Below, in pieces: positions 1,777 through 23,144 of a stretch of DNA of 32,916 nucleotides. The DNA lies in contig JAPDIX010000024.1 of assembly GCA_029259345.1 (NCBI GenBank), positions 1-32,916 of the forward strand, read 5' to 3'. Below the pieces are notes generated by a model, which saw nothing but the letters and a program-made list of their open reading frames with translations, was not told the origin of the DNA and made no database searches. Source of the stretch: Archaeoglobi archaeon. Its GTDB lineage: Archaea > Halobacteriota > Archaeoglobi > Archaeoglobales > Archaeoglobaceae. Position numbers and translations under genes: made by a program. Numbering within the stretch: the stretch's first letter is position 1; the number at the start of each line of letters is the position of its first letter.

Positions 1777-3288
1777 TTATTCTCCATAGAACTTTCTTAG
1801 AAATTCCTCCGAAGGAGGTGGGGTAAGTAGCGACACTACCACTGTAACTATTCCTGATACCAATGTGGGTATAGCTCCTTCCCAAAGTCCCCATGGATTG
1901 TAAGGCCAGTCTGGAAACAGGACAAAGAGGTTCAACAGTAGTACGATGAATCCTGTTAGGATTCCTGCAAAAATCCCCCATCCAGTAGCTCTTCTCCATA
2001 TTAGCATTATTACAATGGGTATTGACAGAACTGCGTATCCTGACCATATATATTTAACTGCTATTCCAACAATTGGTATGTCTGGTTTCAGGGCAGCAGA
2101 CACTGCTATTCCAAGCACGATTAGAACTAGAAGTCTTGATGTTATGTCTACTTTCCTATGGTCCCACTGTACTTTGAAAACTTTCTCAAATATGTCTATA
2201 TGCAGAACTGACGCGTTGAGAACGAGTAAAGCGGCTGCTGTTGTATTTCCTGCTGCTATCAGCCCCAACATTAACACTGCGGCTAAAACTGGGCCGAAAA
2301 ACTTAATGAACAACAATGATAGCAGTTCTTCTGGTGCAGATAAGTCGGGTGGTTGTGGAAATGTTGCGACTAGCGCTGCACCTATTACAATTGGTACAAG
2401 AGCGTACGTTATTGGTATGAATATACCACTCCCTAATCCCATCGATAGTACTGCCTTAGTATCTCTAGCAGAATATGTTCTCACCAGAATGTGAGGTGCT
2501 AAACACGTCCAAGTTATATTTGCAAGTATTATGTAACTATACATATATTGAGGTGGTAGTGCTAAGCTAGGAGCTGGCTGGAATACTTCTTGTCCTTTTG
2601 GTGTATTTACAGCAGCTTGAATTAATTCGGCAAGTCCGCCCCATTTTACTATGAGAACTATTACAAGCCCAAAGATGAGGGCGGTAAATGTCAAACCTTG
2701 AAGTATATCAGTGTACGCGACCCCTCTCAATCCACCGAGTACTGTGTATATTGCTATAATCGCAGCAAAAAGCAAAACAAGGAATTCGTATGACAGCTCA
2801 CCACCAGTTAGTCCTGCTAACATCCCTCCCATTGCCTGTAGCTGCATAGAAACATAAAACACGCTTGGGAAGAATATCAGCCCAAATCCAACAAGAATTC
2901 TTAGTGGTATGTCTAATTTCTCACCAGATCTATGTGCAATCAAGTCAGTTGGCGTTATATAGTTGTGCATCTTTCCTAACTTGTAAAGTCTCAATGCTAG
3001 GAATATTGTGAGTGGTGTGATTACAGCAGCATACGATATCGTATCTATCAGAGCCCACTGACATCCCCAAAAATAATATGTGACACCATGACCAACAAAA
3101 GCATAAGTGCTTAAGTATGTAGATACAAATACCCAAAATGTTACGAACGCTCCAAGTTTTCCACCTGCAATGTAGTATTCACCCTTTCCTTTCCCGGTTC
3201 TCTTCCATCCAAGAAGTCCAAGTAAAATGTTTGCGAGGCTATATATCACTACAAGAGTCAGGATAACCGTAGTCAAAAAAGACACCAT
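1777..3288 (-). CDS. Sodium:solute symporter (SSS) family permease, 503 aa
   Basis: Long ORF with many hydrophobic segments. SSS-like 'YYIAGGKLGAFVTFWVFVSTYLSTYAFVGH' and 'IYTVLGGLRGVAYTDILQGLTF'. Confidence 0.88.
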   Translation of the reverse strand: MVSFLTTVILTLVVIYSLANILLGLLGWKRTGKGKGEYYIAGGKLGAFVTFWVFVSTYLSTYAFVGHGVTYYFWGCQWALIDTISYAAVITPLTIFLALRLYKLGKMHNYITPTDLIAHRSGEKLDIPLRILVGFGLIFFPSVFYVSMQLQAMGGMLAGLTGGELSYEFLVLLFAAIIAIYTVLGGLRGVAYTDILQGLTFTALIFGLVIVLIVKWGGLAELIQAAVNTPKGQEVFQPAPSLALPPQYMYSYIILANITWTCLAPHILVRTYSARDTKAVLSMGLGSGIFIPITYALVPIVIGAALVATFPQPPDLSAPEELLSLLFIKFFGPVLAAVLMLGLIAAGNTTAAALLVLNASVLHIDIFEKVFKVQWDHRKVDITSRLLVLIVLGIAVSAALKPDIPIVGIAVKYIWSGYAVLSIPIVIMLIWRRATGWGIFAGILTGFIVLLLNLFVLFPDWPYNPWGLWEGAIPTLVSGIVTVVVSLLTPPPSEEFLRKFYGE

Positions 3289-3294
3289 ATTACA

Positions 3295-3585
3295 TCACCT
3301 TGTTAGGGTTATCTCTTTTTCCTTTTGCCCGAAGTGTCTTGTGTAAACGATGTAGAGTGTAAAACCAAGGACGGCAGCCCAAAATCCGTGAACCATATGT
3401 ATGAATACATTTTTTGGAAGCCCCATTATCCAAACTCCGTCAAATGTTGCGAAGTGTGTGACAGTGTACACTAACAGTACCCACATAGTCAATGTATATC
3501 CAATTATCCACTTCTCAAATGGCAGTAGTTTAGTTACTGGTATAGCTTTGTAGTCACTATTGTCCAACCCACTATCCTCACTCAT
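3295..3585 (-). CDS. Small membrane protein, probable accessory subunit of the SSS symporter (96 aa)
   Basis: Directly upstream of and co-directional with the symporter (6 bp gap); hydrophobic helices in 'WIIGYTLTMWVLLVYTV' and 'GFWAAVLGFTLYIVY'. Confidence 0.65.
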   Translation of the reverse strand: MSEDSGLDNSDYKAIPVTKLLPFEKWIIGYTLTMWVLLVYTVTHFATFDGVWIMGLPKNVFIHMVHGFWAAVLGFTLYIVYTRHFGQKEKEITLTR

Positions 3586-3622
3586 GCTTTTCTTAACCCG
3601 TTTAGTTTTTCTTATTATTTTC

Positions 3623-3653
3623 GTTAATATGTTAATTTTGTTAATATGTTAAG
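3623..3653. promoter_or_regulatory. Tandem GTTAATATGTTAA motif upstream of symporter operon 1
   Basis: GTTAATATGTTAAT (3623-3636) and GTTAATATGTTAAG (3640-3653), starts 17 bp apart, 38-68 bp upstream of the minus-strand start at 3585. Related to sites at 8119 and 12621. Confidence 0.45.
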
Positions 3654-4136
3654 GATTTTGGGACATAGAATATAAACCGAAAGTGTTAGCTTTAAGCTTT
3701 GTCGCATTCTTCTTTACAATGGCTTGCTGACTGAGTCGTTTGGATCGACTACGAGTAGTATTTCTATTTTCTAACCTTGAGGAGGCCCATTCCTACTTTT
3801 ACATAACTTTTACGGTTTTAAACGGGTATATTTCACGTGAAAATAGTTTTGGTTAGATCTCTTTGTGTGTGGAGATTGAATTGCTTGTTGTTTGTGAATT
3901 GAGTCTGTTTTTCAACTTGAGATTCAATTTGTTTTATTTACCCCTGAAGGCGTTTAGTTATCTATCCTTGGGTAGTAGTGTCCACAATTTTTGGATTTGC
4001 TTAGAGAAGAACAAATATGGTGAAAGTTGCATAATGATATTGAGCTTTCATGATTTTTTATGTATTAACATAGTAACAGAAACTTTAATTGCTAGTAGAG
4101 TCTTAAAATTTCCACTTCCGAGGAGGTGAGGAAAGT

Positions 4137-4796
4137 ATGAGCGATGCAGAAAAAAAACTTATGGAACTGAGAGATGCGATAATAGATGGCGACTCAGAAA
4201 AAGCTAAGGAAATCACAGAAGAACTCGTTAGAGATGGTATAGACCCACTTAGAATAATCAAAGAAGTGGTAGGACCCGCTTCAAAAATAGTAGGTGAAAA
4301 ATTCGAGAGCGCTGAAATATTTCTGCCAGACTTGATTATGGCTGGTGAAGCTCTAAAGGCGGTGGTAGATGTTGTGTCCTCTTCTATCCCAGAGGGGCAG
4401 AGTGCCAAGAAAGGAAAAATCCTTATCGCAACAGTTAAAGGGGACCTCCATGATATAGGTAAGAACATTGTAAGCAGCTTATTAGCTGCAAGCGGTTTTG
4501 AGGTTTATGATTTAGGTATTGACGTTGATGCTCAAGAAATAATACAGAAGGCAGAGGAAGTACAGGCTGATGTTATCGGCCTATCAGCTCTGTTAACCAC
4601 TACGCTTGAACAGCAGAGAGAAGTGATTAACTTGCTCAAAGAATTGGGCCTAAGAGACAAATATATCGTAGTTATCGGAGGAGCGCCAGTTACCAAAGAG
4701 TGGTGCGAAGAGATTGGTGCAGATGGATGGTCAACAGATGCCATTGAAGCTGTAAAATTAATAGAAGAGCTAATGGAAAAGAAGAAAAAGAGGTGA
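4137..4796 (+). CDS. Methyltransferase cognate corrinoid protein (MtmC/MtbC/MttC-like), 219 aa
   Basis: B12-binding signature 'GDLHDIGKNIV' (DxHxxG), 'GLSALLTTT', 'VIGGAPVT'; N-terminal helical cap domain. RBS-like gaggaggtgagg upstream. Confidence 0.93.
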   Translation: MSDAEKKLMELRDAIIDGDSEKAKEITEELVRDGIDPLRIIKEVVGPASKIVGEKFESAEIFLPDLIMAGEALKAVVDVVSSSIPEGQSAKKGKILIATVKGDLHDIGKNIVSSLLAASGFEVYDLGIDVDAQEIIQKAEEVQADVIGLSALLTTTLEQQREVINLLKELGLRDKYIVVIGGAPVTKEWCEEIGADGWSTDAIEAVKLIEELMEKKKKR

Positions 4797-4802
4797 GGAG
4801 AT

Positions 4803-6176
4803 ATGACAATCGAAATAACAGAACTAGAAGAAAGGGCACACACGGGCCCATTTATGGCTTTAAAAGATTTTCAGAAAAAAATGTACCTCAGAGCTCGAGA
4901 ATTAGTAAAAGAATACGACATCAATCGAGACCCAAATGACATTGTCCCGACAGATATTAGTATAACAAAAGATATCTACGAAGCAGCCTTACAGCTACTT
5001 CAAGATGTCGGGTTTATTTGTGTGGAAACATCCAGAACAGTTCAAGTCGAAAAAGATGAAATTTTACGAGGGTTACGTAAAGTTCCAACCGAAGTTCAAT
5101 TTGGCTCAAATAATGAAATCGTTAGAATTAAAAGGAGAGAGTTGTTTAGTCAATCCCCTATTGTGAAATGGTTAGGACCTTGGGGGGCCCAAATTTCTTC
5201 GCCAGAGATGTTTTTGCTAATCCATCAATCCTATGCCAAAGAGAATATTGATGCTCTACAGTGTGGAGTGGTATCAAAAATTGATGGAAAAACTGTGAGA
5301 AACAAATGTGTTAGCGAAATTATTTCAGCAACCTTGGGTGCTAAGTTATTAAGAGAAGCCGTCAAGAGAGTAGGTAGGCCAGATATGCCGATAAGCTTTG
5401 ATTGTGTTGGAGGTAGTGACGTTGCTTTTCCAGCAATATTTACACCCGATGGAGCAAGGCCGACTGACCATGTAGTACTATTTAATGTAATGTCAGAAAT
5501 GTCTTTTTCTTTGATGGACCTTAATAAAATCGCATTAGCCAAAGCATTTAACGAAAGCTATCCATTTTTAGGTTTCCTACAGAATCCTTACGGAGGTTTC
5601 GGAGGTGGTTCAGAAACTCTCGCAATCATATCTACAGCTGAGGCTATTTTCACCTTGGCTATTAGTGGTATTTGGGGCGTCTATACCGGAGTGACAACAA
5701 TATCTCCTATTCCGAAACACGAAGATCTCCTCTGGTTCGAGATCTGTAACAAGCTCACCCTTAAAAAACATACAGACGCAATAATTTGCGGATCTCCGGT
5801 ATCGTTTTCTGAACCAAGTACAGAAACGCTCGTCCACGAATTGGTTTACCGTACAATTCCATTGACTCTTACTTCAGATGCCTTGCTTGCTGCACAAGCT
5901 GCTTGTGGCAAACCCTACGATTACGTAACGGGAATGGAAGCGAGAATCGTTTCTGAAGTCACAGATGCCGTTTTAGGAATGGGTATAAAGATAGAGGATG
6001 CGAACGAATTGTGCAAAGAGATACTGAAAAGATATCTCAAAGACAAAGCGCCAGAAAAAGGAAAGAGGTTTTATGAATGCTACGATACTGAAAAAATCGA
6101 GCCAAGTAAAGAATACCTAAGCATATATGAAAAGCTAAAAAGAGAATACCAGGATATTGGTATAGAGTGGATTTAA
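4803..6176 (+). CDS. MtmB-family (monomethylamine:corrinoid methyltransferase-like) protein without pyrrolysine, 457 aa
   Basis: C-terminus 'TGMEARIVSEVTDAVLGMGIKIED...KGKRFYECYDTEKIEPSKEYLSIYEKLKREYQDIGI' parallels MtmB 'TGMEARMMGEVARATAGVEISE...AGKTFQECYDVKTVTPTEEYMQVYDGARKKLEDLGL' (from memory). Near-identical length; no internal TAG; 'GRPDMPIS' aligns with 'GRPGMGVO'. Confidence 0.85.
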   Translation: MTIEITELEERAHTGPFMALKDFQKKMYLRARELVKEYDINRDPNDIVPTDISITKDIYEAALQLLQDVGFICVETSRTVQVEKDEILRGLRKVPTEVQFGSNNEIVRIKRRELFSQSPIVKWLGPWGAQISSPEMFLLIHQSYAKENIDALQCGVVSKIDGKTVRNKCVSEIISATLGAKLLREAVKRVGRPDMPISFDCVGGSDVAFPAIFTPDGARPTDHVVLFNVMSEMSFSLMDLNKIALAKAFNESYPFLGFLQNPYGGFGGGSETLAIISTAEAIFTLAISGIWGVYTGVTTISPIPKHEDLLWFEICNKLTLKKHTDAIICGSPVSFSEPSTETLVHELVYRTIPLTLTSDALLAAQAACGKPYDYVTGMEARIVSEVTDAVLGMGIKIEDANELCKEILKRYLKDKAPEKGKRFYECYDTEKIEPSKEYLSIYEKLKREYQDIGIEWI

Positions 6177-6196
6177 TTTTTTAAATTTTAACTAAC

Positions 6197-7990
6197 ATGA
6201 TTGAGATAACATTCGAACCCGCAGGAAGGAAACTAAAAACTGACCCCGGACACATACTGGAAATCGCCAGAGATGCTGGAGTGCCCATCAGGTCTGATGG
6301 TGGTGGCAAAGGAGTCTGCGGGAAATGCAAAGTGGAAATAGTTGATGCTAAAGCGGAGTTTAGTAAAATCACCGAGGCGGAGAGAAAACACCTGAGCGAG
6401 GAGGAGCTAAAGTCGGGATATAGACTTGCCTGCCAGACTAAAATTTTAAGCGGTAGGGCGAAGATTTTGATTCCTCCTGAAAGCAGGCTGGAGTCCAGAA
6501 AGATCGCTGATCTTGCTGTAGAGCGAGAAATAAAGCTCAATCCACCAGTCAGAAAGGTTCATGCGATAATCAGCGAGCCAAGTCTCCACGACATAAGGCC
6601 CGATTTTGAAAGGCTTGAAGACGTATTTGGAGAGTTTCAAATACCTCTTAGTATTCTCAGTGAGCTCCCATCATTGCTGAGGGAGGCTAACTGGGATATC
6701 ACTGCCGTATTCTGGAAAGATACGCTGATATCTATTGAAAAAGGTGATACAAGTAATAGGGGTTACGGTCTTGCAGTTGACATAGGTTCGTCCAAAATTA
6801 TCTGTCATCTCGTCGATCTTTTGAGCGGTGAAACGGTGGCGAGAGGTTACACAGAGAACCCACAGGTTGCTTATGGTGAGGATGTGGTCTCAAGAATCAC
6901 TTATGCCTCGAAGAATAAAGACCACAGGAAAAAACTTCAGGAAATCGTGGTTACTGCTATAAACTCTGTAATATCAAATCTCTGTGAGGAGGCAGGGATT
7001 GGCGAGGAGGAAATTTACGAGGCAGTGGTGGTTGGAAACTCAGTGATGCACCACCTCTTTTTTGGAATAAATCCCAAGTTTATCGGAGTTCTACCCTTTG
7101 TTCCTGCAGTTAGACGTGGAATAAACTATCGGGCAAAGGAAGTTGGTTTGAAAATCAATCCAGAGGGTTTTGTTTCGTCACTTCCACTTATAGCCGGATT
7201 TGTCGGGGCAGATGCTGTTGCAAACATTGCCGTCACAGGAATTCACAAAAGCCAAGAAATTGCTATGCTTATAGATATTGGAACCAATACTGAAATTGTT
7301 TTAGGCAACAAAAGCAGATTGCTCGCATGCTCCGCCCCTTCCGGACCGGCTTTTGAAGGAGCACACATAAGCCATGGAATGAAAGCCGTGAGCGGTGCGA
7401 TAGAGAAGGTAAGAATTGTGGATGACGAAGTTATTTATGAAACTGTCGGTAACGTGAAGTCGAAGGGGATATGTGGAACCGGAATGATTGACCTGGTTGC
7501 CGAGCTTTACAGAAATGGCATAATAAGCAAAAATGGAAAATTCATCGGTAATACAGCGAGAATATCTGATGAAGAGATTCGGAAATATATTGTGGCTTAC
7601 GCAGAAGAAACTGAATTTGAAAAACCAATAACGGTTAGCGAGAAGGACGTAAAAGAGTTCCTAATGGCGAAAGGGGCGATAAAAGCTGGTTGGACAATTT
7701 TAGCCGAAAAACTTGGAATAACTGTAGAGAAAATCCAGAGAATCTTCCTTGTTGGCTCGTTCGGTAGAGAAATAAACATCAAAAATGCAAAAGCGATAGG
7801 TTTGTTGCCAAACATTCCAGATGAGAAAATTACCTTTGTCGGAGATACAGCTGTTGGTGGGGCTAAGATGGCTCTAAAATCACTGGGTGTTCGTAAGGAG
7901 ATGGAAGATGTAGTGAAAAGGATTGAATATATCGAACTTTCTGCAGTGAAGAACTTTTACAGTGTTTTTGCTAGATCTATTCCGATCTAG
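6197..7990 (+). CDS. Reductive activator of corrinoid proteins (RamA/RACE-like): N-terminal 2Fe-2S ferredoxin domain plus ASKHA/DUF4445 ATPase domain, 597 aa
   Basis: 'GGGKGVCGKCKVEI...YRLACQT' is a plant-type ferredoxin motif; 'YGLAVDIGSSKIICHLVDL', 'AMLIDIGTNTEIVLG' and 'IFLVGSFGREINIKNAKAIGLLPNIP' are ASKHA/DUF4445-like. Confidence 0.9.
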   Translation: MIEITFEPAGRKLKTDPGHILEIARDAGVPIRSDGGGKGVCGKCKVEIVDAKAEFSKITEAERKHLSEEELKSGYRLACQTKILSGRAKILIPPESRLESRKIADLAVEREIKLNPPVRKVHAIISEPSLHDIRPDFERLEDVFGEFQIPLSILSELPSLLREANWDITAVFWKDTLISIEKGDTSNRGYGLAVDIGSSKIICHLVDLLSGETVARGYTENPQVAYGEDVVSRITYASKNKDHRKKLQEIVVTAINSVISNLCEEAGIGEEEIYEAVVVGNSVMHHLFFGINPKFIGVLPFVPAVRRGINYRAKEVGLKINPEGFVSSLPLIAGFVGADAVANIAVTGIHKSQEIAMLIDIGTNTEIVLGNKSRLLACSAPSGPAFEGAHISHGMKAVSGAIEKVRIVDDEVIYETVGNVKSKGICGTGMIDLVAELYRNGIISKNGKFIGNTARISDEEIRKYIVAYAEETEFEKPITVSEKDVKEFLMAKGAIKAGWTILAEKLGITVEKIQRIFLVGSFGREINIKNAKAIGLLPNIPDEKITFVGDTAVGGAKMALKSLGVRKEMEDVVKRIEYIELSAVKNFYSVFARSIPI

Positions 7991-8118
7991 TCTACCAGTT
8001 TTTTTAGATCGCACTGATAGAGATCCGATAAGAGGGGATAAAGTAGCTATCGATTCCAAATATGAAGACGTAGAAAAGAGGAATTGAACTAAAAATCAAA
8101 GAACGCCATGAAAAGTAA

Positions 8119-8132
8119 GTTAACATCTTAAC
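8119..8132. promoter_or_regulatory. GTTAACATCTTAAC inverted-repeat motif upstream of CoA-transferase operon
   Basis: Perfect arms GTTAA-N4-TTAAC, 38 bp upstream of the start at 8171. Confidence 0.45.
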
Positions 8133-8170
8133 GGAAGATTAAATTTTACGTCCACCGCGGTCGTGTAGAG

Positions 8171-9760
8171 GTGAAAAAAATGGTCGAGTTCATAACATTT
8201 GAACAGGTTGCAGATCTCTTACGAAGTGGAGATGGTGTTTTTAGCTCAGGATTTGCGGGGATAACACACCCTGAGGCGATTAGTGCAGCAATTGAAAAAA
8301 GATTTCTTGAAACGGGATCACCGAAAAACCTCTCTTTGTTTTACTGCGCTGGTCAGGGTGCGGGTGAAGACAAGGGTCTAAACCATTTTGGGCACGAAGG
8401 TTTAGTCAAGTTTGTAATCGGTGGCCATTTTGGCTTTCACCCAAGACTTGTCAAGTTGATACTTGAAGATAAAATAGAAGCTTATGCATACCCACAGGGC
8501 GTTATCTCTCACTTGATTAGGGCAGCATCTGGTGGTAAACCTGGTATTATCACTCATATAGGTCTTGGAACATTTGTTGATCCTAGAAAAGACTGTGCTG
8601 CACTAAATTCGATTTCAAAAAGAAAATTTATCGAGCTAGTGGAGATCGACGGAAAGGAGTATTTATTTTATAAATCAGAACCCTTCAAAAAAGCAAATTT
8701 TGCCATAATCAGAGGCACAACAGCAGATGAAAATGGAAACATTACAATGGAAAAAGAGGCAGCAACACTTGAAGCGTTGAGTATAGCTACTTTGGCGAAA
8801 AACAATGGAGGGGTTGTTGTTGTCCAAGTGGAAAGAATAGCGAAAAAAGAAACATTCCATCCTCAAATGGTAAAAATTCCGGGTCATTTGGTAGACTATG
8901 TACTAAAAACACCCAGCGAAGATTACCACTGGCAAACATTTCAAGAAAAATATAACCCAGCGTATTCAGGTGAAATTAAAGTTCCACCTTCAGAATTTCC
9001 TAAACTTCCGTTAAATGAAAGAAAAATTATTGGGAGAAGAGCTGCATTCGAATTAAAATTAGGAAATATTGTAAATATAGGTATAGGTATGCCTGAGGCT
9101 GTCTCGCTTGTTGCTAGTGAGGAAGGTATTTTTGAGAATATAATACTTACCGTTGAAGATGGGGTGGTTGGAGGTGTGCCTGCAGGCGGATTAAGTTTTG
9201 GAGCATCGGTGAACCCATGGGCGATAATCGACCAGCCCTACATGTTCGACTTCTATGACGGGGGAGGAATAGAGATAGCGTTTTTAGGAATGGCTGAAGT
9301 AGACGAGGAAGGAAATGTTAACGTCAGTAAATTTGGCTCCCGACTACCTGGACCTGGGGGCTTCATCAATATCTCTCAAAGTGCCAAAAAGGTCGTATTC
9401 TGCGGTACCCTAACTGTTGGAGCAGAGCTTAAAATCGTAGATGAACAGTTGAAAATAGTAAAAGAGGGGAGAGCTAAAAAATTCGTGAAAAAAGTGGGAC
9501 ACGTAACCTTTAGTGGAGAGTACGCAGAGAAATTCGGTCAAGAAATTCTTTACGTGACTGAAAGAGCCGTATTTAAGTTATCAAAGAAGGGTTTGGAGTT
9601 AATAGAGTATGCACCAGGAATAGACATCGAAAAAGACGTTATTTCCCAAATGGAATTTGAACCAATAATAAAGGAGCCAAAAGAGATGGATCGTAGAATA
9701 TTTAGCAACAAAATAATGGATCTTAAAAATCTGTTACCTACAAAACAAAAGGTGAGGTGA
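8171..9760 (+). CDS. Family I CoA-transferase (fused alpha/beta; acetate/propionate or 3-oxoacid CoA-transferase-like), 529 aa
   Basis: 'GDGVFSSGFAGITHPEAISAAIEKRF', 'NIGIGMPEAVSLVASEEG' and 'LTVEDGVVGGVPAGG', which includes the expected catalytic Glu region. Confidence 0.88.
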   Translation: MKKMVEFITFEQVADLLRSGDGVFSSGFAGITHPEAISAAIEKRFLETGSPKNLSLFYCAGQGAGEDKGLNHFGHEGLVKFVIGGHFGFHPRLVKLILEDKIEAYAYPQGVISHLIRAASGGKPGIITHIGLGTFVDPRKDCAALNSISKRKFIELVEIDGKEYLFYKSEPFKKANFAIIRGTTADENGNITMEKEAATLEALSIATLAKNNGGVVVVQVERIAKKETFHPQMVKIPGHLVDYVLKTPSEDYHWQTFQEKYNPAYSGEIKVPPSEFPKLPLNERKIIGRRAAFELKLGNIVNIGIGMPEAVSLVASEEGIFENIILTVEDGVVGGVPAGGLSFGASVNPWAIIDQPYMFDFYDGGGIEIAFLGMAEVDEEGNVNVSKFGSRLPGPGGFINISQSAKKVVFCGTLTVGAELKIVDEQLKIVKEGRAKKFVKKVGHVTFSGEYAEKFGQEILYVTERAVFKLSKKGLELIEYAPGIDIEKDVISQMEFEPIIKEPKEMDRRIFSNKIMDLKNLLPTKQKVR

Positions 9761-9766
9761 TGTAAA

Positions 9767-10240
9767 ATGGTGGGTGAACCTAAATTTGAAGAGTTGTGGC
9801 AAAAATACAAAGCCTTAGGTGGAGAATTCAAAGAATTTAAGAAATTGAACTTGAAACCTGAAATTGGTGTTGAAATAAAATATGAAAAGAAAATAACAGA
9901 AGTAGATCTACATATGTTTGGATTAGTTTCTGGAGACCTTCAACCGCTACACTTTGACGAAGAATATGCCTCTAAAACAAGATTCAAGGGGAGAGTTGCT
10001 CATGGCATGCTAACAACAAGTTTAGTCTCAGCACCATTTGCTATGCTGGAGGGAACAGTGATCCTATTAGAATCTCACTTTAAGTACTTGGCTCCAGTAA
10101 GAATAGGCGACACAGTTCTGGTTAAGTGTGTTATTTCGGAGAAAGATGAAAAAGGAAGGTTCAAATCTAATGTCGAATGCTATGTTGGAGAGAAGAAAGT
10201 TGTAGATGGCTGGGTGAAGTTCTTAGTAGATTCTGACTAG
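9767..10240 (+). CDS. MaoC-like (R)-specific enoyl-CoA hydratase/dehydratase, 157 aa
   Basis: Hydratase-2 motif 'LVSGDLQPLHFDEEYASKTRFKGRVAHGML'. Starts 6 bp after the CoA-transferase stop. Confidence 0.88.
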   Translation: MVGEPKFEELWQKYKALGGEFKEFKKLNLKPEIGVEIKYEKKITEVDLHMFGLVSGDLQPLHFDEEYASKTRFKGRVAHGMLTTSLVSAPFAMLEGTVILLESHFKYLAPVRIGDTVLVKCVISEKDEKGRFKSNVECYVGEKKVVDGWVKFLVDSD

Positions 10241-10672
10241 TTCTGTTTAAACTTTTTTAACAATTTTTTTCGCCCAAGTTATAGGTAACTCCTCCTATAT
10301 GGGCTCCTTGTAGGCTTTCTCGAAAATCCCAAGAACTCCTCAGGCACCTCTTTTGCTATCGTTATAAATTCATCCGTTCTGTCAGCTAAGCTAGATTTTC
10401 CCCAACATTATTCACCCAGCCATCCGCAAGGCTTGCTTTGAACCAGTGTAACCAACTGATCGCTACCACTCTGCTAGTAACACAAGCTACCTCAACGCGC
10501 ATCGAGCTATTCATAGCTAAATCGATGTACTCGGCGAGCAAAAGACGAGGTAACTCGATATCCCTTGGCTCAACCCCGTTACCCTCGAAGGGCAGGCTCT
10601 ATAATTGCACGCTTTCTGACATCGGGGAGACGCCCGCACCTGAAAATTCAGAATAATAAAAAAATAGTGGAA

Positions 10673-12148
10673 TTATATTTCCATTATAGCTTTAATGTCT
10701 GGGTCAAGTTCCTCCTCTGTAGCTCCCTTTGTCACAAAAGAGACAAAGATCAGTGTCAAGATTGAAGCCATTATTGAGATTACGTAACTCGGTATTCCGT
10801 AAGGCATTGTGAAACCAAGACCCTTCTCCAGTATCAGAAATGCTATATTGGCTACCAACGCCACTGCCAAGCTTGCTACTGCACCCTCTCTTGTGGCCCT
10901 CTTCCAGTTCAGTCCGATGACGAAAACCGGAAATATCGCTGAGGCAAAGTATCCCCATCCGAGCGTTCCAAGAATGAGAACCATGTATCCTCCGTAGTAG
11001 CCGAAGATTAGGGCGAGTATCGTTATAACTACAGTCACGATTCTGCCCCAGAAGATTTGCCTCTTCTGGTCCAGTTCCTTTCCAAATGCCTTTGTCAAGT
11101 CTCTTGCGACTGCCGCTGAAGCTATAGCTATGAACCCACTAGCTGTAGACATGATAGCTGCTAGTAATCCTGCGTAGAGAAGGCCTGCCATCCATACGGG
11201 GAGGTGAGTTACAACGGCTATGGCAGCATCATCGGGTCTTTCTAATGGTGGCACAAATCCTTTTGCGACTAACCACAAAGCTGCATACCCTACGAATATC
11301 CACAGGAGACTGGTGAGCATGTATCCAAGTCCACTTACCACAGCACCCACTTTAAGATCTTTCCAATTTTTCAGGGTATAGAATTTTGTTGTTTGATGTG
11401 GTTGTGAACAATTGGTGAGCGAGAAAACCCACCACCAACATAGTGCGAGCATCCAGGTTCCTTTGCCTAACGGATCTATGAGTTTTGGATCCATTTGTTG
11501 TCCAACTGTTGTGAAAAGTCCTTCTGTACCTCCGGTCATGCCAAGAACCAATATAAGCGCGGCTATACCAGCAATGATCATGATAAGGCCCTGAAAGAAG
11601 TCTGTTAGAATGCTTGCAACCATTCCGCCTATGGCTGTGTAAGCCAGTACGACGCCAAAGGCCAGAAGAATTCCAACCTCCAAACTAACGCCAAGTAATC
11701 CGGCAACAACGATTCCTCCAGAGAGGACTTGAGTACCTAGATACGCCACAACACCAAGTAGAAGACTCAGCGCTAGTAATGCTCTAGCTGCATTGCTTTT
11801 ATATCTGTAGTACACTACATCTGGAAGAGAACCTATAGGTCTAACTTCAGCCATGAGTCTAAGTCTCTTACCCAGCATCCAAAAGCCAAACGCGAAACCG
11901 AACGGTGCGGTTAGAGTTATCCAAAGAGACGTAGCCCCTAGTTTATATACCATGCCTGGACCGCCAATGAATCCGAATCCGCTCATGACCGCTGCACACG
12001 AAGCAATACCCATCATAAAGGGTCCAAAGAGGCGGGTAGCACCGAAGTAGTGCTCGGATGTCTTGATCTTCCTAACACCAATGATTCCTATGATGAAGCT
12101 GAGAATAAAGTACCCAATAACGATAGTCGCTACAACCGGGTCTGTCAT
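10673..12148 (-). CDS. Sodium:solute symporter (SSS) family permease, 491 aa
   Basis: Multi-TM ORF with 'KTSEHYFGATRLFGPFMMGIASCAAVMSGFGFIGGPGMVYK' and 'AYTAIGGMVASILTDFFQGLIMI'. Confidence 0.9.
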   Translation of the reverse strand: MTDPVVATIVIGYFILSFIIGIIGVRKIKTSEHYFGATRLFGPFMMGIASCAAVMSGFGFIGGPGMVYKLGATSLWITLTAPFGFAFGFWMLGKRLRLMAEVRPIGSLPDVVYYRYKSNAARALLALSLLLGVVAYLGTQVLSGGIVVAGLLGVSLEVGILLAFGVVLAYTAIGGMVASILTDFFQGLIMIIAGIAALILVLGMTGGTEGLFTTVGQQMDPKLIDPLGKGTWMLALCWWWVFSLTNCSQPHQTTKFYTLKNWKDLKVGAVVSGLGYMLTSLLWIFVGYAALWLVAKGFVPPLERPDDAAIAVVTHLPVWMAGLLYAGLLAAIMSTASGFIAIASAAVARDLTKAFGKELDQKRQIFWGRIVTVVITILALIFGYYGGYMVLILGTLGWGYFASAIFPVFVIGLNWKRATREGAVASLAVALVANIAFLILEKGLGFTMPYGIPSYVISIMASILTLIFVSFVTKGATEEELDPDIKAIMEI

Positions 12149-12586
12149 CTACACACCTCCTAGGTTTTGCTCTTTGTATTTCTCCTCAAACTTCTTTACA
12201 TCCTCTTCACTAAGGACAGCTTTCTCGAAAAGCAGTGGGTACATTAGTGTCACTAGTACGAATAGTAGCAGCCACCATGTTGGGAAGAGTACAAAGAAGC
12301 CGGGGTGCATCCCAAGAATTGTGAAATCTGGGAAGACTCCTTTGTATAACTCCCAGTAGTAGAAGATTAGTGACAGGCAAATGCTCGATACGACGAATGT
12401 CGCGCCACCTACTGCAATGCCATATTTTACATTTTTTGTTGATGTTGCCAGTACTAGCCATATGCTAAGGTTAAGAAGCGCTAAGTACCCAAAAGCTTTG
12501 TAGGCGTTAGTCAGTGCTGTCACTGCTAGCAACAATGTTATCACTCCTTGCACTAATAAAATCCTATCTATCTTAGTCCAAGGCAT
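12149..12586 (-). CDS. Small membrane protein paired with the downstream symporter (145 aa, about 4 TM)
   Basis: Hydrophobic ORF abutting the symporter start with no gap on the same strand. Confidence 0.65.
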   Translation of the reverse strand: MPWTKIDRILLVQGVITLLLAVTALTNAYKAFGYLALLNLSIWLVLATSTKNVKYGIAVGGATFVVSSICLSLIFYYWELYKGVFPDFTILGMHPGFFVLFPTWWLLLFVLVTLMYPLLFEKAVLSEEDVKKFEEKYKEQNLGGV

Positions 12587-12620
12587 GATTTAATTTGCAC
12601 AAAACGTTTAATTTTTTTTT

Positions 12621-12634
12621 GTTAAAATGTTAAC
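12621..12634. promoter_or_regulatory. GTTAAAATGTTAAC inverted-repeat motif in the divergent symporter-2/regulator intergenic region
   Basis: Perfect arms GTTAA-N4-TTAAC, 35 bp upstream of the minus-strand start at 12586. Confidence 0.45.
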
Positions 12635-12806
12635 TTGATTAATCACTCGAAAAGAAAAGGGATAAATATCTATACTGTATTAAAAAATCGAAAACACGTT
12701 CATGGGTGCTACTCTTTATCTCAAAAATTGGGCAAAACTTTTAAATTCTTAATAATACTATCATCCAACATTAATTTCAACAATAGTCAACATCCGAGGG
12801 TGCAGA

Positions 12807-13556
12807 ATGTACATTGTGACTGTAGAAATGAAACAACCGGATTGTCCATTCGTCCTCACTTCCGAAGATGTAGAAGTCACGTATTTCTCACCATTCTGGG
12901 ACTTTAGGGAGAAAAATTTATTCGGTAGGATCTACATAACTGGAAAAAACTGTGAAGTAATTCAAACTTCAATAGAGATGTTAGAACTTCAACCAAACCT
13001 TCTTGAATTTGAACTTTTGTCAAGAGATGCTAAAGCGGTTTTAGCAAAGATAAGGATGGGAATAACAAACGCAATGGACATAGTAAGAAAGAACAATGGG
13101 TATATTGTAGGGCCATTCTTTATCAGAAAAGGTTGGGAAATATGGCAAATTGGATTTGATAAGAAAGAGTACATAGAGAATACTATTAGGGATTTAGAAA
13201 TGTCGCCAAACGAATTTAAAATAAAAAACCAGAACAATCTTACAATAGATCAATTTTCAAAGGTTATATGCAATGCTTCGCAAATTGCTGGTCTTATCAA
13301 TACTTTGGAAAATATTACTAAAGAAGAAAAGGACATTGTTAATGCACTAGTTGCGTATGGTTTTTACGATGATCCAAGAAAAATTAGTTTATCAGAACTT
13401 GCAAAAAAATTTGGGCTTACTGCTGCTGGAATGTCAAAAAAATTAAGGAAAATTGAGAAAAAAGTAATTGGCTCAGTTATACCCCTCATAGATCTTAATC
13501 AAGGAGAGTTTTCCTCCGATTTTTCTGAGTTGAAATTATCTAATCCGAAAAAATAA
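12807..13556 (+). CDS. Bacterio-opsin activator (Bat)-type HTH_10 domain transcriptional regulator, 249 aa
   Basis: C-terminal 'EEKDIVNALVAYGFYDDPRKISLSELAKKFGLTAAGMSKKLRKIEKKVI' is an HTH_10-like segment; archaeal-style N-terminal domain. Confidence 0.8.
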   Translation: MYIVTVEMKQPDCPFVLTSEDVEVTYFSPFWDFREKNLFGRIYITGKNCEVIQTSIEMLELQPNLLEFELLSRDAKAVLAKIRMGITNAMDIVRKNNGYIVGPFFIRKGWEIWQIGFDKKEYIENTIRDLEMSPNEFKIKNQNNLTIDQFSKVICNASQIAGLINTLENITKEEKDIVNALVAYGFYDDPRKISLSELAKKFGLTAAGMSKKLRKIEKKVIGSVIPLIDLNQGEFSSDFSELKLSNPKK

Positions 13557-13854
13557 ATAGGACGTGATGGCCGGAAAGTCTAATTGCCTTGATCTCCTCA
13601 GACTCTTCGTAGCTTCAGCCACTTCAACAACTCTCTTGGCTATCTGAGAACAAAGAGCGAAAATGGCACAACGGTATTGTTGCAACTGCAAGAAAGATTT
13701 AGTCTCTATTTATCAACTCCAGCCAAATATACACGAAGAGTTCAACATAAGTGGAATGAGACATTGTTAAAATGACTATACTCAGAGGAAAGGATACTGT
13801 AAATATCCAAATCCAAATCATAAATTTCTTATACTCAAGACGGAATGACGCTTC

Positions 13855-14772
13855 ATGTTCAAATTTAAGGCTGAACAAAAAATTTTCGAGGTTTATGGAG
13901 TAAAGGTTGGTGGAGAACCTGGACAACTCCCAACGGTGATGATCGGGAGTATTTTTTATCATGGCGACAAACTTGTAAAGGACGAAAAGAAAGGGATATT
14001 TGACAAGGATAGAGCTGAGGAATTACTAAAAAAGGAAGAGGAATTGGCACATCAAACAGGAAATCCGAGAATGGTAGACATTGTCGCTGCATCAACTACT
14101 GCTATGGAGAAGTATATTGAATTCATAGCCGACCATACAAACTCTCCCTTCCTTGTCGACGGCACAACAGAAGATGTTAAGATTGCTGGAGTAAAGTATG
14201 TTAGTGAAGTAGGATTATCTAGTCGAGCAATATACAATTCTATTTCTACCACAACTAAGCAAGAAGAGCTTATCGCAATCCGAGACTCAAAAATTACTTC
14301 TGCAATATTGCTGGCTATAAACACAAGAAGACCAACTATTGACGGCAGAATAGAGGTTTTAAGTGAAGAAAATGATGGTTTGATAAAAATAGCAAGTAAG
14401 TATGGAATTGAAAAACTACTTGTTGACCCCGGAGTTCTAGATTTACCCGATCCAGGTCCTGCAGCTAAAACTATACACATTATAAAAGAAAAGTTTGGAC
14501 TCCCAGCCGGATGTGCAGCACATAATGCCATAGATCTGTGGTCAAAACGTAAAAAGTTATCACATGATATCCGACTAATTGGTAATGTTGTAGCTAATAT
14601 TGTACCCACGATTATGGGTGCTGATTTTGTGTTTTATGGTCCCATAAGCAGAGCAGAACAAATATATCCGGCAATAGCATTAGCTGATGCTTACATAGCG
14701 TATTGCATGCAGCAGCAGTACAAAGTAAAACCTCTGACGAAAGATCATCCACTCTACAAGATTTTCAAATAA
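13855..14772 (+). CDS. mtrH: Tetrahydromethanopterin S-methyltransferase subunit H (MtrH) family methyltransferase, 305 aa, stand-alone
   Basis: 'MFKFKAEQKIFEVYGVKVGGEPGQLPTVMIGSIFYHGDKLV', 'YVSEVGLSSRAIYNSI' and 'GLPAGCAAHNA' match MtrH (from memory). No mtrA-G neighbours. Confidence 0.92.
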   Translation: MFKFKAEQKIFEVYGVKVGGEPGQLPTVMIGSIFYHGDKLVKDEKKGIFDKDRAEELLKKEEELAHQTGNPRMVDIVAASTTAMEKYIEFIADHTNSPFLVDGTTEDVKIAGVKYVSEVGLSSRAIYNSISTTTKQEELIAIRDSKITSAILLAINTRRPTIDGRIEVLSEENDGLIKIASKYGIEKLLVDPGVLDLPDPGPAAKTIHIIKEKFGLPAGCAAHNAIDLWSKRKKLSHDIRLIGNVVANIVPTIMGADFVFYGPISRAEQIYPAIALADAYIAYCMQQQYKVKPLTKDHPLYKIFK

Positions 14773-14959: not shown

Positions 14960-16351
14960 TTAGAAGTTAAGAATGGCCTCGAGTTTCAGCTTCCTCTCAA
15001 CCTCTCTTGCGATAACCTCCACCCAGTCATCTTCTCTTTTAATTTTCACACCGAGATACTTCCCCAGAGCATCTACAACATTTGCATTCCAGAACAAACC
15101 GTGCAGGTAGGTGCCCCAGCACATCCCATCCTCACTAACACACCCTTCATCCTCAAACAACGGCTTTGACGCCTCTGTAACGCCCTTGTGTATCTCATAG
15201 CCCCAGACTTCCTGCCCGGCAATCCTGTCCAGAATTACGACATTCCCCCTGACCCTCTTCACAACCTGAACCGTCCTCTTTCTGTAGTTCTCAAATCTCG
15301 TGACGGCATCAAGCAGCCCCAACCCCTTCACCCTGACTTTCCCATGCTCCACTCCATAATCAATCAGCTCCTTCCCCATAATCTGGTAGCCACCGCATAT
15401 CCCGATAACCGGAATCTTGCCCGCATTTCTGACGATTTCCTCACCGAGCCTTGACCTCTTCAGCTCCATCAAATCTGCAATGGTATCCTTCGTTCCCGGA
15501 ATTATGACTACCTCACATCCATCCAGCTCCGAATTCAGATCGAGAAAGCGCGTATATCTCCTTATAAACTCAAAATCCGTGAAGTTTGACACTCTGGGCA
15601 GCCTTACTATTCCCACCGGCCCCTCTTTTCCCCAGTCATCAATGTTCAGGGAGTCTTCTGAGGGAAAGTTGTAGTTAAGAAAGGGGAGCACCCCCAGAAC
15701 GGGAATGCCGGTCAGCTTCTCAAGCCGCATTATCCCGCTTTGCAGAATATCCTCCCTGCCCCTCAGCCTGTTTATAATGAATCCCTTCACCAATTTTCTG
15801 ACATCTTCGGGCAGAAGAGAGTAGGTGCCGAAAAGAGATGCAAACACACCTCCTCTGTCTATATCTCCGACAATGATTATGTCGGGCTTGGCAAACCTCA
15901 CGATGTGTATGTTCGCCAAATCCCTCTCGTAGAGGTTTATCTCGGCCATTCCACCCGCACCTTCAATAACCACAACATCGTACTCCTCAGCGAGGCTTGT
16001 GTATGCGTCCTCGACAACCTTCCTCAACCAGTCAACTTCTTCATAGTAATTCCTCGAATCCACATCACCAACGGCCTCACCCATCACAACAAGCTGAGAA
16101 GTAAAATTTCCTTTCGGCTTCAGCAGTATTGGATTCATCCTTTTATCCGGATCAATTCCGGCAGCAAAAGCCTGATAAGCCTGTGCTATCGCTATCTCCT
16201 TCCCATTTCTGGTCACGTATGAGTTAAGACTCATATTCTGAGCCTTAAAAGGGGCAACGTCGTAGCCCCTTTTCGCCAGAATTCGGCAGAGAGCGGCAAC
16301 AATTAAGCTCTTTCCGGCACTGCTTGTAGTTCCTCCGACCATAAGTGGCAT
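14960..16351 (-). CDS. cobQ: Cobyric acid synthase CobQ, 463 aa
   Basis: 'MVGGTTSSAGKSLIVAALCRILAKRGYDVAPFKAQNMSLNSYVT' and the GATase segment 'IPVIGICGGYQIMGKEL...GTYLHGLF'. Confidence 0.96.
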   Translation of the reverse strand: MPLMVGGTTSSAGKSLIVAALCRILAKRGYDVAPFKAQNMSLNSYVTRNGKEIAIAQAYQAFAAGIDPDKRMNPILLKPKGNFTSQLVVMGEAVGDVDSRNYYEEVDWLRKVVEDAYTSLAEEYDVVVIEGAGGMAEINLYERDLANIHIVRFAKPDIIIVGDIDRGGVFASLFGTYSLLPEDVRKLVKGFIINRLRGREDILQSGIMRLEKLTGIPVLGVLPFLNYNFPSEDSLNIDDWGKEGPVGIVRLPRVSNFTDFEFIRRYTRFLDLNSELDGCEVVIIPGTKDTIADLMELKRSRLGEEIVRNAGKIPVIGICGGYQIMGKELIDYGVEHGKVRVKGLGLLDAVTRFENYRKRTVQVVKRVRGNVVILDRIAGQEVWGYEIHKGVTEASKPLFEDEGCVSEDGMCWGTYLHGLFWNANVVDALGKYLGVKIKREDDWVEVIAREVERKLKLEAILNF

Positions 16352-19681: not shown

Positions 19682-20603
19682 TTAAAAATATCCTCCAACA
19701 GAGACCTTCAAACCCCTCTCCTCGAGGAAAGTAGCAAAATCGGTGGCAAGCTTCTTGGCATTCTCGACCATTCTTGGTGTTTCCAAGATATATTCCCTAC
19801 CCAGCAACCTGTATTTGTCTCTCGCTAAGGAATGGTAGGGCAGGACATCAACCCTTTCAACTCCAGCACTCTCCAGGACTCCCAAATATCCCTCAAAACC
19901 CTTGTATTCAAAGTTGTAACCGGGAATCACAGGGATTCTGACTATAACCTCCGCTCCACTGTCAACAAGCTTCCTGAGGTTCAAAAGGATGGTCTTGTTG
20001 CCAGCACCACACGTTCTTCTGTGCCTGTCATCTCTGTAATCCTTCAAATCGTAGAGGAAGAAGTCAACAAAGGGCAAGGTTCTCTCGATAACCTCCCATC
20101 TCACGTAACCAGAGGTGTCAACTGCCGTGTTTATCCTCCTGCTCTTACAGGCTCTCAGCAGTGCAAGGAGAAATTCAGACTGAAAGTAAGGCTCACCACC
20201 TGAAAACGTCACCCCCCCCACCAGAGTTTTCGTAGAATACTCTATCCCTTTCAACAAGAGCGATAACTTCCTCAACCGAAACATCCTTTCCAAACATCTC
20301 CAGAGCCCTACCGCTACACGCCTCGACGCATTTACCACATCCATCGCACATCTCCCTGTTTATTTCTATTCCTATCTCTGCTGGAATAATTGCACCTCTA
20401 TCGCAGACTTCAGCGCATTTGTGGCATGACAGACATTTCTCAGCTTTGTATCCGACCTCTGGCTCGAAACTCTGCGACTCTGGATTATGGCACCAGACGC
20501 AATGGAGGGGGCATCCTTTCAGAAATACTGTCGTTCTTATTCCGTAACCATCATGGATCGAGAACCTCTGTATCCTGAATATTCTGCCCTTCATAGCTTG
20601 CAT
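19682..20603 (-). pseudogene. Glycyl-radical enzyme activating enzyme (radical SAM, PflA-like), split by an apparent +1 frameshift in an 8-nt homopolymer
   Basis: ORF 20193-20603 carries 'GCPLHCVWCHNPESQ' (CX3CX2C) plus a ferredoxin-type insert; ORF 19682-20344 carries '..GVTFSGGEPYFQSEF'. With 7 instead of 8 C at 20212-20219 they join as 'FYENSGGGVTFSGGEP'. Confidence 0.85.
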
Positions 20604-22914
20604 GAAACCCTGCGAATTATCTCATCCTGCACGGGTTTTGAGAGTTCCACAAAGTAAGCACTCCACCCGGCAACTCTCACAAGGAGCCATCTGTACTTTT
20701 CTGGCTCTTCCTGAGCCTTTTTCAGAACGTCTGCCTTTAAAATGTTGAACTGAGCGTGCATGCAGCCCAAATCCAACGCACTTTTGATCAGGGCTTTTAT
20801 GATCTCGACACCTTTTGACCCAAGCACATCTTCGCTCAGATTCAAGGTCAGTGATGCTCCGTTAGGTATCTTTGCGTAGTTTATCTTTGAAGCAGACTTG
20901 ATTACGGCAGTAATACCCTCCCTGTCCATTCCAGTTGATGGGCTGACACCCGGATTTAGGGGCTCACCACTTCTTCTACCAGATGACAGTGCTGAAGTAA
21001 AGAACCCGAATCCGACATTTGTGGTCATGGGATAGCAGCCAGCAGCAAAATATCCTCCCCTGAAGTTTCTATGCCTGTTGACTTCATCGCAGTAGAATTC
21101 AAGAACCATCCTTGTGTATTTGTCCGCCCTATCATCATCGTTGCCATACTTCGGGCTCTCAATCAAAATTCTGCGGAGCTCTTCATTGTCAACAAAGTTT
21201 GTCTTGCATGCTTCAATTATCTCCTCTATCGTGTATCCTGCCTCTAAAGCTCTTTCAATAGCTGCAAGTGGATCTCCAACATCAGCAACGCCAACAGCCT
21301 GTATCCCCGTGAAGTTGTATCTCGCTCCACCCCTTGTTACATCTCTGCCCTCTTCAAAGCAGTCTTCAATACAGAGCGACAAAAGCGGTGTTGGTTTTCA
21401 GCATTTGCATGGCCAAGAACATTACATCCTTTTACAACGAGCTTTACGATGTGTGAAAGCTGCTTTCTGAAGTTTTCAATCAGTTCTTCCAGCGTTTTTG
21501 CCTTCCCCGTCTTCACACCAAACTCATGACCAAACTGAATGTCTTTTCCTTCGTTCATTGCATATTCCAGAGCTTTGGCAACATTTATCAGGGCAGCATC
21601 GCTGGATGTGAAGCTGTTACCAAAGGGTGCGATTTCCACGCAGCCGACTGTGGTGTAATTCCAAGCATCTTCATCTCTTACACCTATAGCCCTTAGAGCT
21701 TCAACCGCAACCTCGTCATTAAATAAAGCTATGGCATTACAGCCTGAAGCTATAGCTTCAGCAAGTCTAACCAGAAAATCTTCAGGAGTTCTTTTGCTCA
21801 CTCTCACATGGACGTTCGGCTGCCTAAGCCTTAGCCTGTTCGTAACTTCAAGCATGAGATACGTCAGCTCATTCGTAGCGTCTCTTCCGTAGATGTCGCA
21901 TCCTCCAATTGTTAGAGCCTGATTTGTTGTCTGACCGCTGAAGAACTGTTCAAGCAGTGAGTCAAATGGGGGAACTATCTCGTTTGTCTTAATCCACAGA
22001 TTCGCGAGAATTTCAAACGCTTTATGCTTGTCAATTCTACCCTCCTTCAAGTCTCTGTAGTAGTAGGGATAGAGATACTGGTCAATTCTTCCCATCGAAA
22101 TGGCTTGCTCGTAATTCTCCTGATGAAGAGCGGATTGAACAAGCCATAGAAACTGAACAGCTTCCCAGAAGCTCTCTGGCTTCTCTGCTGGAACTTTTCT
22201 GCAGATTTCTGCGATTTTCAAGAGCTCATCTTTCCTCGTTTCATTCTCAGTCTCTTCTGCAATCCTCTCTGCGAGTTCAGCGTATCTCAGACCGTAATTT
22301 ATTATTGCCTCAGAAACTATTCTTGCTGCATGATAAAATACATACTCCTCTCCCTCATAAACGCCGTTCTCCTCAAGCTCTTTAATCCTCCTTTCACTCT
22401 CCTCCAGAAACCATCTGAAACCTCTTCTCATCAGATATGGATAATTTATTGCTACATGAGATATTCCAGCAAGCTCGGTCAGAACGAAGACCGAGCCAGT
22501 GTAAAGAACGCTCATGATATCGGGCATTAATGGAAACGAAAAGGCCTCAATAGTTCTTTTCTGCCAGTAAGGAGCTATTTCTTCTCTGAGAACTCCTGCA
22601 TCTTCTTCGTCAACAAGCAACCTGTTTGTCTCTCTTTTGGGCAAGGTGTCAAGCTCATTTATCAATCTGAGACCCACACCCTCTGGAAAAAGAATTGCTC
22701 CAGGAGGATTGGGGAGCATGGTTCCAACAATTAATTCGTCATCAAGTATCTGAATAGGTATATTCTCAAGAATATTTTTCAGCGCTTTTGCCTGCCTTAA
22801 TATCATTGGCTCCCCTTCAGTATTCCTCATTGAATCTGTATACAGCTTGGCTCTCTCTACACTGAGACGTGGAGGTTTTGCCAGATTCCCAACAAGTTTC
22901 TCAATTCTGTCCAT
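20591..22914 (-). pseudogene. Glycyl-radical enzyme (PFL2/glycerol-dehydratase-like), split by an apparent 1-nt deletion
   Basis: 'YTTVGCVEIAPFGNSF' active-site Cys region; 'VRVAGWSAYFVELSKPVQDEIIRR' glycyl-radical motif. Frames switch at about 21393; restoring one base gives 'ENPTPLLSLCIEDC'. Confidence 0.87.
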
Positions 22915-22975
22915 GGAATGAGTTAATGATAAATTACTTAAAATTTTCAAAAATTCTTGAAACCATGTAACAAAT

Positions 22976-23144
22976 ATGAACATTCTGGAGATTGCTGAAC
23001 TTTACGGTGAGCCAGATGGGATAAAAGAGGAAAGCATATACTCGAATGGCTTGGAGTTTGCCGGAAGGGAGATTGAGGTTGTGGAAACACTAAGACCGCA
23101 GATGGACTGGAAACTTTTTTCAATTGTTAATTTACTTTCGGCTT
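22976..23144 (+). pseudogene. Fragment of an MBL-fold hydrolase paralog
   Basis: 'ILEIAELYGEPDGIKEESIYSNGLEFAGREIEVVET' resembles 'VLGEVAEVYGKPDSVDESRVIAVEDGQEFDLGGDTLKVFHA' in the intact gene just downstream. Confidence 0.5.

Follow-up and report, generated by a model that had tools for sequence, protein, structure and literature searches.

The window, by which we mean the whole stretch of 32,916 nucleotides analyzed, belongs to a genome taken to be that of an Archaeoglobus species: a genome of the same genus has an operon that agrees with the published AF_0006 to AF_0013 of A. fulgidus. It carries a gene for an MtmB-family methyltransferase, here called P0001, together with genes for other components of a corrinoid methyltransferase system (Table 1). 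The genes for the first methyltransferase (MT1), the corrinoid protein and the activase are contiguous (4137 to 7990), and that for the second methyltransferase (MT2, mtrH) starts at 13855, about 7.7 kb downstream of mtmB. Because two minus-strand genes lie between them, mtmB and mtrH do not form one operon. Two small predicted membrane proteins without a Pfam match are encoded at 3295 to 3585 and 12149 to 12586, both on the minus strand, each directly upstream of an SSF symporter gene. No Rfam elements were found in the window, and a promoter and terminator scan of bacterial type gave results near chance.

Table 1. Features of the P0001 locus; positions are those of the window
Feature	Position	Strand	Basis or remark
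SSF sodium:solute symporter, candidate for uptake, gene divergent from the module	1777..3288	-	Pfam
Corrinoid (B12-binding) protein, 219 aa, DxHxxG motif as GDLHDIG	4137..4796	+	Pfam B12-binding and B12-binding_2; 6-bp gap to the mtmB-like gene
Non-Pyl MtmB-family methyltransferase (MT1), P0001, 457 aa	4803..6176	+	PF05369, E = 1.1e-65; AlphaFold pLDDT 93.9; TM 0.93 to 1L2Q/1TV2/1NTH
AGC codon, Ser198, Pyl202 column	5394..5396	+	Sequence alignments
RACo-type reductive activase of the corrinoid protein, 597 aa	6197..7990	+	Pfam RACo_C_ter, Raco_middle, RACo_linker, Fer2; PDB 3ZYY
Family I CoA-transferase (YdiF/FadX type)	8171..9760	+	Link to the module uncertain, 180-bp gap
MaoC-type enoyl-CoA hydratase, forms a pair with the CoA-transferase	9767..10240	+	Pfam
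SSF sodium:solute symporter, candidate uptake system	10673..12148	-	Pfam
HTH_10 archaeal regulator, precedes mtrH	12807..13556	+	Pfam
MtrH/MtoA/MtgA-type second methyltransferase (MT2), predicted methyl transfer from corrinoid to tetrahydromethanopterin	13855..14772	+	PF02007, E = 1.7e-93
Cobyric acid synthase CobQ (corrinoid synthesis), adjoins mtrH on the other strand	14960..16351	-	TIGR00313, 661.6 bits, above cut-off

P0001 is a full-length MtmB-family protein without pyrrolysine (Pyl). Its 457-codon frame contains no internal stop or TAG, in agreement with the first-pass annotation, and a missed amber codon or frameshift was rejected, the frame being open and the local sequence clean. As this annotation had also proposed, membership in the MtmB family extends over the whole protein: PF05369 covers residues 4 to 454 (222.7 bits against a cut-off of 25; profile positions 2 to 450 of 450), and phmmer aligned the Methanosarcina barkeri MtmB structures 1TV2 and 1L2Q with residues 10 to 454 (about 7e-42). 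The C terminus had been described as very similar to that of methanogen MtmB; this holds for a few C-terminal motifs, but the protein as a whole is only 24 to 29% identical to methanogen MtmB. The AlphaFold model, built with 58 aligned sequences as input, had a pTM of 0.93 and no disordered stretch, and it fitted the three MtmB crystal structures to 2.0 Å. In contrast, the TM score to MttB and MtgB was about 0.5, and a Pfam scan of P0001 gave no match to PF06253 (MttB). P0001 shares with the MtgB/MttB superfamily (non-Pyl COG5598), which has a non-Pyl branch acting on quaternary amines, the predicted role of a TIM-barrel corrinoid MT1, but it has no detectable sequence homology to it. We therefore rejected a placement in the MttB superfamily, which the first-pass annotation had named as one outcome that would overturn its reading.

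Ser198 was found opposite Pyl202 in three separate alignments: the phmmer alignment to 1TV2/1L2Q, a MAFFT alignment with three TAG-containing MtmBs, and a larger alignment in which all TAG-bearing rows (97/97) place Pyl in this column. In the AlphaFold model, residues 197 and 198 form a short strand, which fits the location of Pyl202 on a strand of the TIM barrel (PMC9842639). Judged by sequence alignment and the overall structural match, Ser198 superposes on the Pyl202 column, and the assignment made at first pass stands. The weight it had put on the serine does not. After removal of near-duplicates, the column held 14 different residues across the non-Pyl homologues (I 10, M 9, V 9, N 9, L 7, Q 3, T 3, H 3, G 3, F 2, K 2, and S, P and W once each), P0001 being the only one with serine. 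Serine as a conserved catalytic substitute for Pyl was rejected on the grounds of this variability. Since there is no common replacement residue, the chemistry is presumably set by the shape of the pocket and the choice of substrate rather than by side chain 198.

The surroundings of this column have changed as well. According to the alignment, Glu229, Glu259, Gln333 and Tyr335 of MtmB, which line the Pyl pocket, correspond to Val225, Leu259, Ser331 and Val333 in P0001. A substrate or chemistry other than that of MtmB is likely, as had been suggested from the sequence. The replacements bear on the idea that P0001 is a monomethylamine methyltransferase working without Pyl. The family name and the fold speak for such an activity, and the non-Pyl MtmB MtqB demethylates monomethylamine slightly (11 nmol/min/mg; PMC13044021). 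With Pyl absent and all four residues replaced, we rejected an argument from pocket conservation and regard this activity as very improbable.

The first-pass annotation was not aware of any characterized non-Pyl MtmB. Such proteins have been known for years and are common, and one of them, MtqB of Methanococcoides methylutens Q3c, was characterized in 2026 (PMC13044021). It demethylates tetramethylammonium (37 nmol/min/mg) and choline (42 nmol/min/mg), and its authors' tree of 1,061 MtmB sequences with and without Pyl contains many non-Pyl ones of unknown function (PMC13044021). Furthermore, the most induced protein in the dichloromethane-grown strain DCMF is a non-Pyl MtmB (PMC9768040). A scan of genome contigs gave nothing with P0001 alone and succeeded with an alignment, and plasmids gave no match. 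In our own scans, 49 of the 398 Thermoproteota genomes and 25 of the 228 Asgard genomes had relatives, almost all of which lacked an internal TAG. P0001 is a new, very divergent member of a known family. Its best identity to any sequence found was at most 34%. The nearest sequences (33 to 34%) were uncharacterized non-Pyl MtmBs of Methanomethylicales, Bathyarchaeia (Hecatella) and Asgard archaea, where no orthologue above 34% was found. MtmB was absent from the 53 other Archaeoglobaceae genomes searched, and only two other genomes of the class Archaeoglobi, from another family of the same order, carry it (26 to 29% identity to P0001).

Some genomes carry more than one MtmB homologue. Ca. Hecatella orcuttiae has 12 MtmB homologues (L232 to L239, L141 and L150 among the loci of genome G254), one with an internal TAG and some in tandem. 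A single 961-codon frame (G453:C78:4740-7550, L167) contains two MtmB homologues and is possibly a tandem fusion. In four loci of Methanosuratincola/Methanomethylicales (L058 to L060 and L062), a corrinoid protein gene is followed by two different non-Pyl MtmB genes in tandem, with Ile or Leu in the Pyl column of the first product and Asn in that of the second.

In a tree of 69 representatives, the Pyl-MtmBs formed one group (support 100). P0001 was the longest end branch (1.5 changes per column). AU tests rejected none of its placements with the Pyl-MtmBs, with the MtqB-like rows or with the clade of the other Archaeoglobales family (p-AU 0.57 to 0.67), so that the lineage of P0001 may have lost Pyl or may never have had it.

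The long branch raises the question of a decaying or non-functional copy. P0001 also departs from five near-invariant columns of the family (P120 to I, G194 to D, K234 to S, G337 to E and G358 to S), and other genes of the window are apparently frame-shifted. On the other hand, its frame is intact and preceded by a good ribosome-binding site, the model is confident and free of disordered stretches, and the corrinoid partner and the activase are well preserved. We consider decay improbable. As for the other genes, a glycyl radical enzyme of the PFL2-3 type is encoded on the minus strand at 20591 to 22983 over two overlapping frames (21337 to 22983 and 20591 to 21382), the frameshift being either real or assembly-derived. 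The gene for its radical-SAM activase (19682 to 20603, minus strand) is apparently split into 19682 to 20344 and 20193 to 20603, the latter with the 4Fe-4S domains. A gene for an HpaB/4-hydroxybutyryl-CoA dehydratase-like flavoprotein (25029 to 26450, minus strand) lies near genes for MBL-fold and CCG-domain proteins.

P0001 and MtqB are both non-Pyl MtmBs with an upstream corrinoid protein gene, and P0001 could be the MtqB orthologue, hence a tetramethylammonium/choline methyltransferase. MtqB is the only characterized non-Pyl MtmB (PMC13044021), the MtqB-like rows L054 and L047 are among the closest methanogen sequences in BLAST, and a clade of MtqB and P0001 was among the placements that the AU tests did not reject (p-AU 0.57). 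However, identity to these rows is only 28 to 30%, and the MtqB-like status of L054, L047, L045 and L069 itself comes from genome context and motif. Moreover, the C-M-C motif of the MtqB-like rows corresponds to Leu259-Gln260-Asn261 in P0001. The conserved Met-Cys pair of MtqB, which lies near the ligand, is, as far as our mapping of the published positions holds, thus replaced by Gln260-Asn261, and MtqB specificity is not indicated. The corrinoid protein of the window lies in a supported branch other than that of the MtqC-like proteins, and the organism and the predicted methyl acceptor differ too. Orthology with MtqB is thus unlikely.

The corrinoid protein encoded next to P0001 belongs to a group of 28 corrinoid proteins (support 97). 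Besides that of the window, 21 members of this group adjoin non-Pyl MtmBs and none adjoins a Pyl-MtmB. Of 99 non-Pyl MtmB genes for which the sequence upstream was long enough, 37 were preceded by an adjacent corrinoid gene. The best identity of the corrinoid protein was 57%, reached among the same archaeal groups that hold the nearest relatives of P0001. For pairs of non-Pyl MtmBs whose corrinoid proteins are 55 to 60% identical, MtmB identity was 50% ± 5% (n = 12, minimum 42%), versus only 28% for the one pair that involves P0001. By these identities, divergence has gone much further in P0001 than in its corrinoid partner, and beyond what the latter would predict. This would reflect either rapid evolution of P0001 following a switch of substrate or a secondary pairing of the two proteins.

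The remaining components point to the Mto system of Archaeoglobus. In A. fulgidus, MtoB, MtoC, MtoA and MtoD (AF_0006 to AF_0010, with AF_0010 named MtoD) were assigned by genomics and transcriptomics to the transfer of methyl groups from methoxyaromatics to tetrahydromethanopterin (H4MPT) (PMC8359953). The activase of the window is 66 to 69% identical to MtoD, that is, to AF_0010 (66%) and its homologues in two genomes of the same genus. The MtrH-type MT2 scored above the cut-off of the MtrH model TIGR01114 and well below that of the MtgA model (298.7 bits; cut-off 550); it is 44% identical to MtoA and 55% identical to an MtrH encoded beside a corrinoid gene in the Archaeoglobales genome G219. 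Distant homologues of the HTH_10 regulator are encoded directly upstream of corrinoid-mtmB pairs in G219 and in G209. Unlike in the A. fulgidus system, however, the MT1 is of MtmB type and not a UroD-type MtoB, and the corrinoid protein is of another branch (40 to 44% identity). The window thus looks like Mto-type hardware of Archaeoglobus with an MtmB-type front end. GC3 of the genes from about 1.8 to 14.8 kb (1777 to 14772) is 0.29 to 0.47 (0.29 to 0.43 for most), compared to about 0.41 to 0.61 to the right. Part of this AT-richer block could have been gained laterally, although the activase looks native.

The MtmB system of M. barkeri has an adjacent corrinoid protein as well, with MtbA/CoM as the acceptor route; the route predicted here is MtrH/H4MPT. 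The host genome (1.49 Mb) is 80% complete, which makes absences provisional; in it, McrA gave no match, no gene of the MttB family (PF06253) was present, and the PylS search gave no more than weak hits to class II synthetases, under the cut-off. The host is heat-loving and probably not a methane maker. The cultured type species of Archaeoglobus is a non-methanogen. Taken together, a complete methyl-transfer module around P0001, in a host without detected methanogenesis genes, is plausible from the gene content, and we put the probability that P0001 serves as the MT1 in such an Archaeoglobus module at roughly 80%.

In this module, the MtmB-fold barrel would bind a small methylated compound, and Co(I) would take the methyl group directly, with no pyrrolysine adduct. 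The methyl group would pass to the corrinoid protein, and the MtrH/MtoA-type MT2 would hand it on to tetrahydromethanopterin for oxidation or assimilation by the Wood-Ljungdahl pathway. The RACo/MtoD-type activase would return accidentally oxidized Co(II) to Co(I). We infer both the order of transfer and the pathway from the protein families.

As to the substrate, our leading guess, to which we give somewhat less than an even chance, is a quaternary ammonium compound, betaine- or choline-like. It is drawn by analogy with MtqB and the non-Pyl MttBs, and it agrees with the presence of the two flanking SSF symporter genes. A non-amine substrate (a methoxy, methylthio or sulfonium carboxylate, or a haloalkane), perhaps tied to the CoA-transferase and MaoC genes, is a possibility that we rate clearly lower. 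It would suit the position of this pair, which follows next after the activase gene in the same orientation, the Mto type of the activase and the strong induction of a non-Pyl MtmB in dichloromethane-grown DCMF (PMC9768040). However, a gap of 180 bp precedes the CoA-transferase gene, and none of the other mtmB loci compared had the pair as a neighbor.

The substrate of P0001 is possibly new. We tentatively hypothesize, as a less likely possibility, that P0001 represents a functional class of its own among the MtmB-fold methyltransferases, specialized for a substrate new to the MtmB and MttB enzymes. Joined to the methoxyl-demethylation hardware of Archaeoglobus (MtoD-type activase and MtrH-type MT2), it would let a non-methanogenic archaeon oxidize a new methylated compound. 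One member of the large non-Pyl MtmB family has been characterized, and the recognizable activase and MT2 beside P0001 make substrate screening tractable. With P0001, non-methanogenic hyperthermophiles would join the organisms that oxidize amines or other methyl compounds, and the enzyme would help to decide whether an older pyrrolysine-free family acquired pyrrolysine or lost it.
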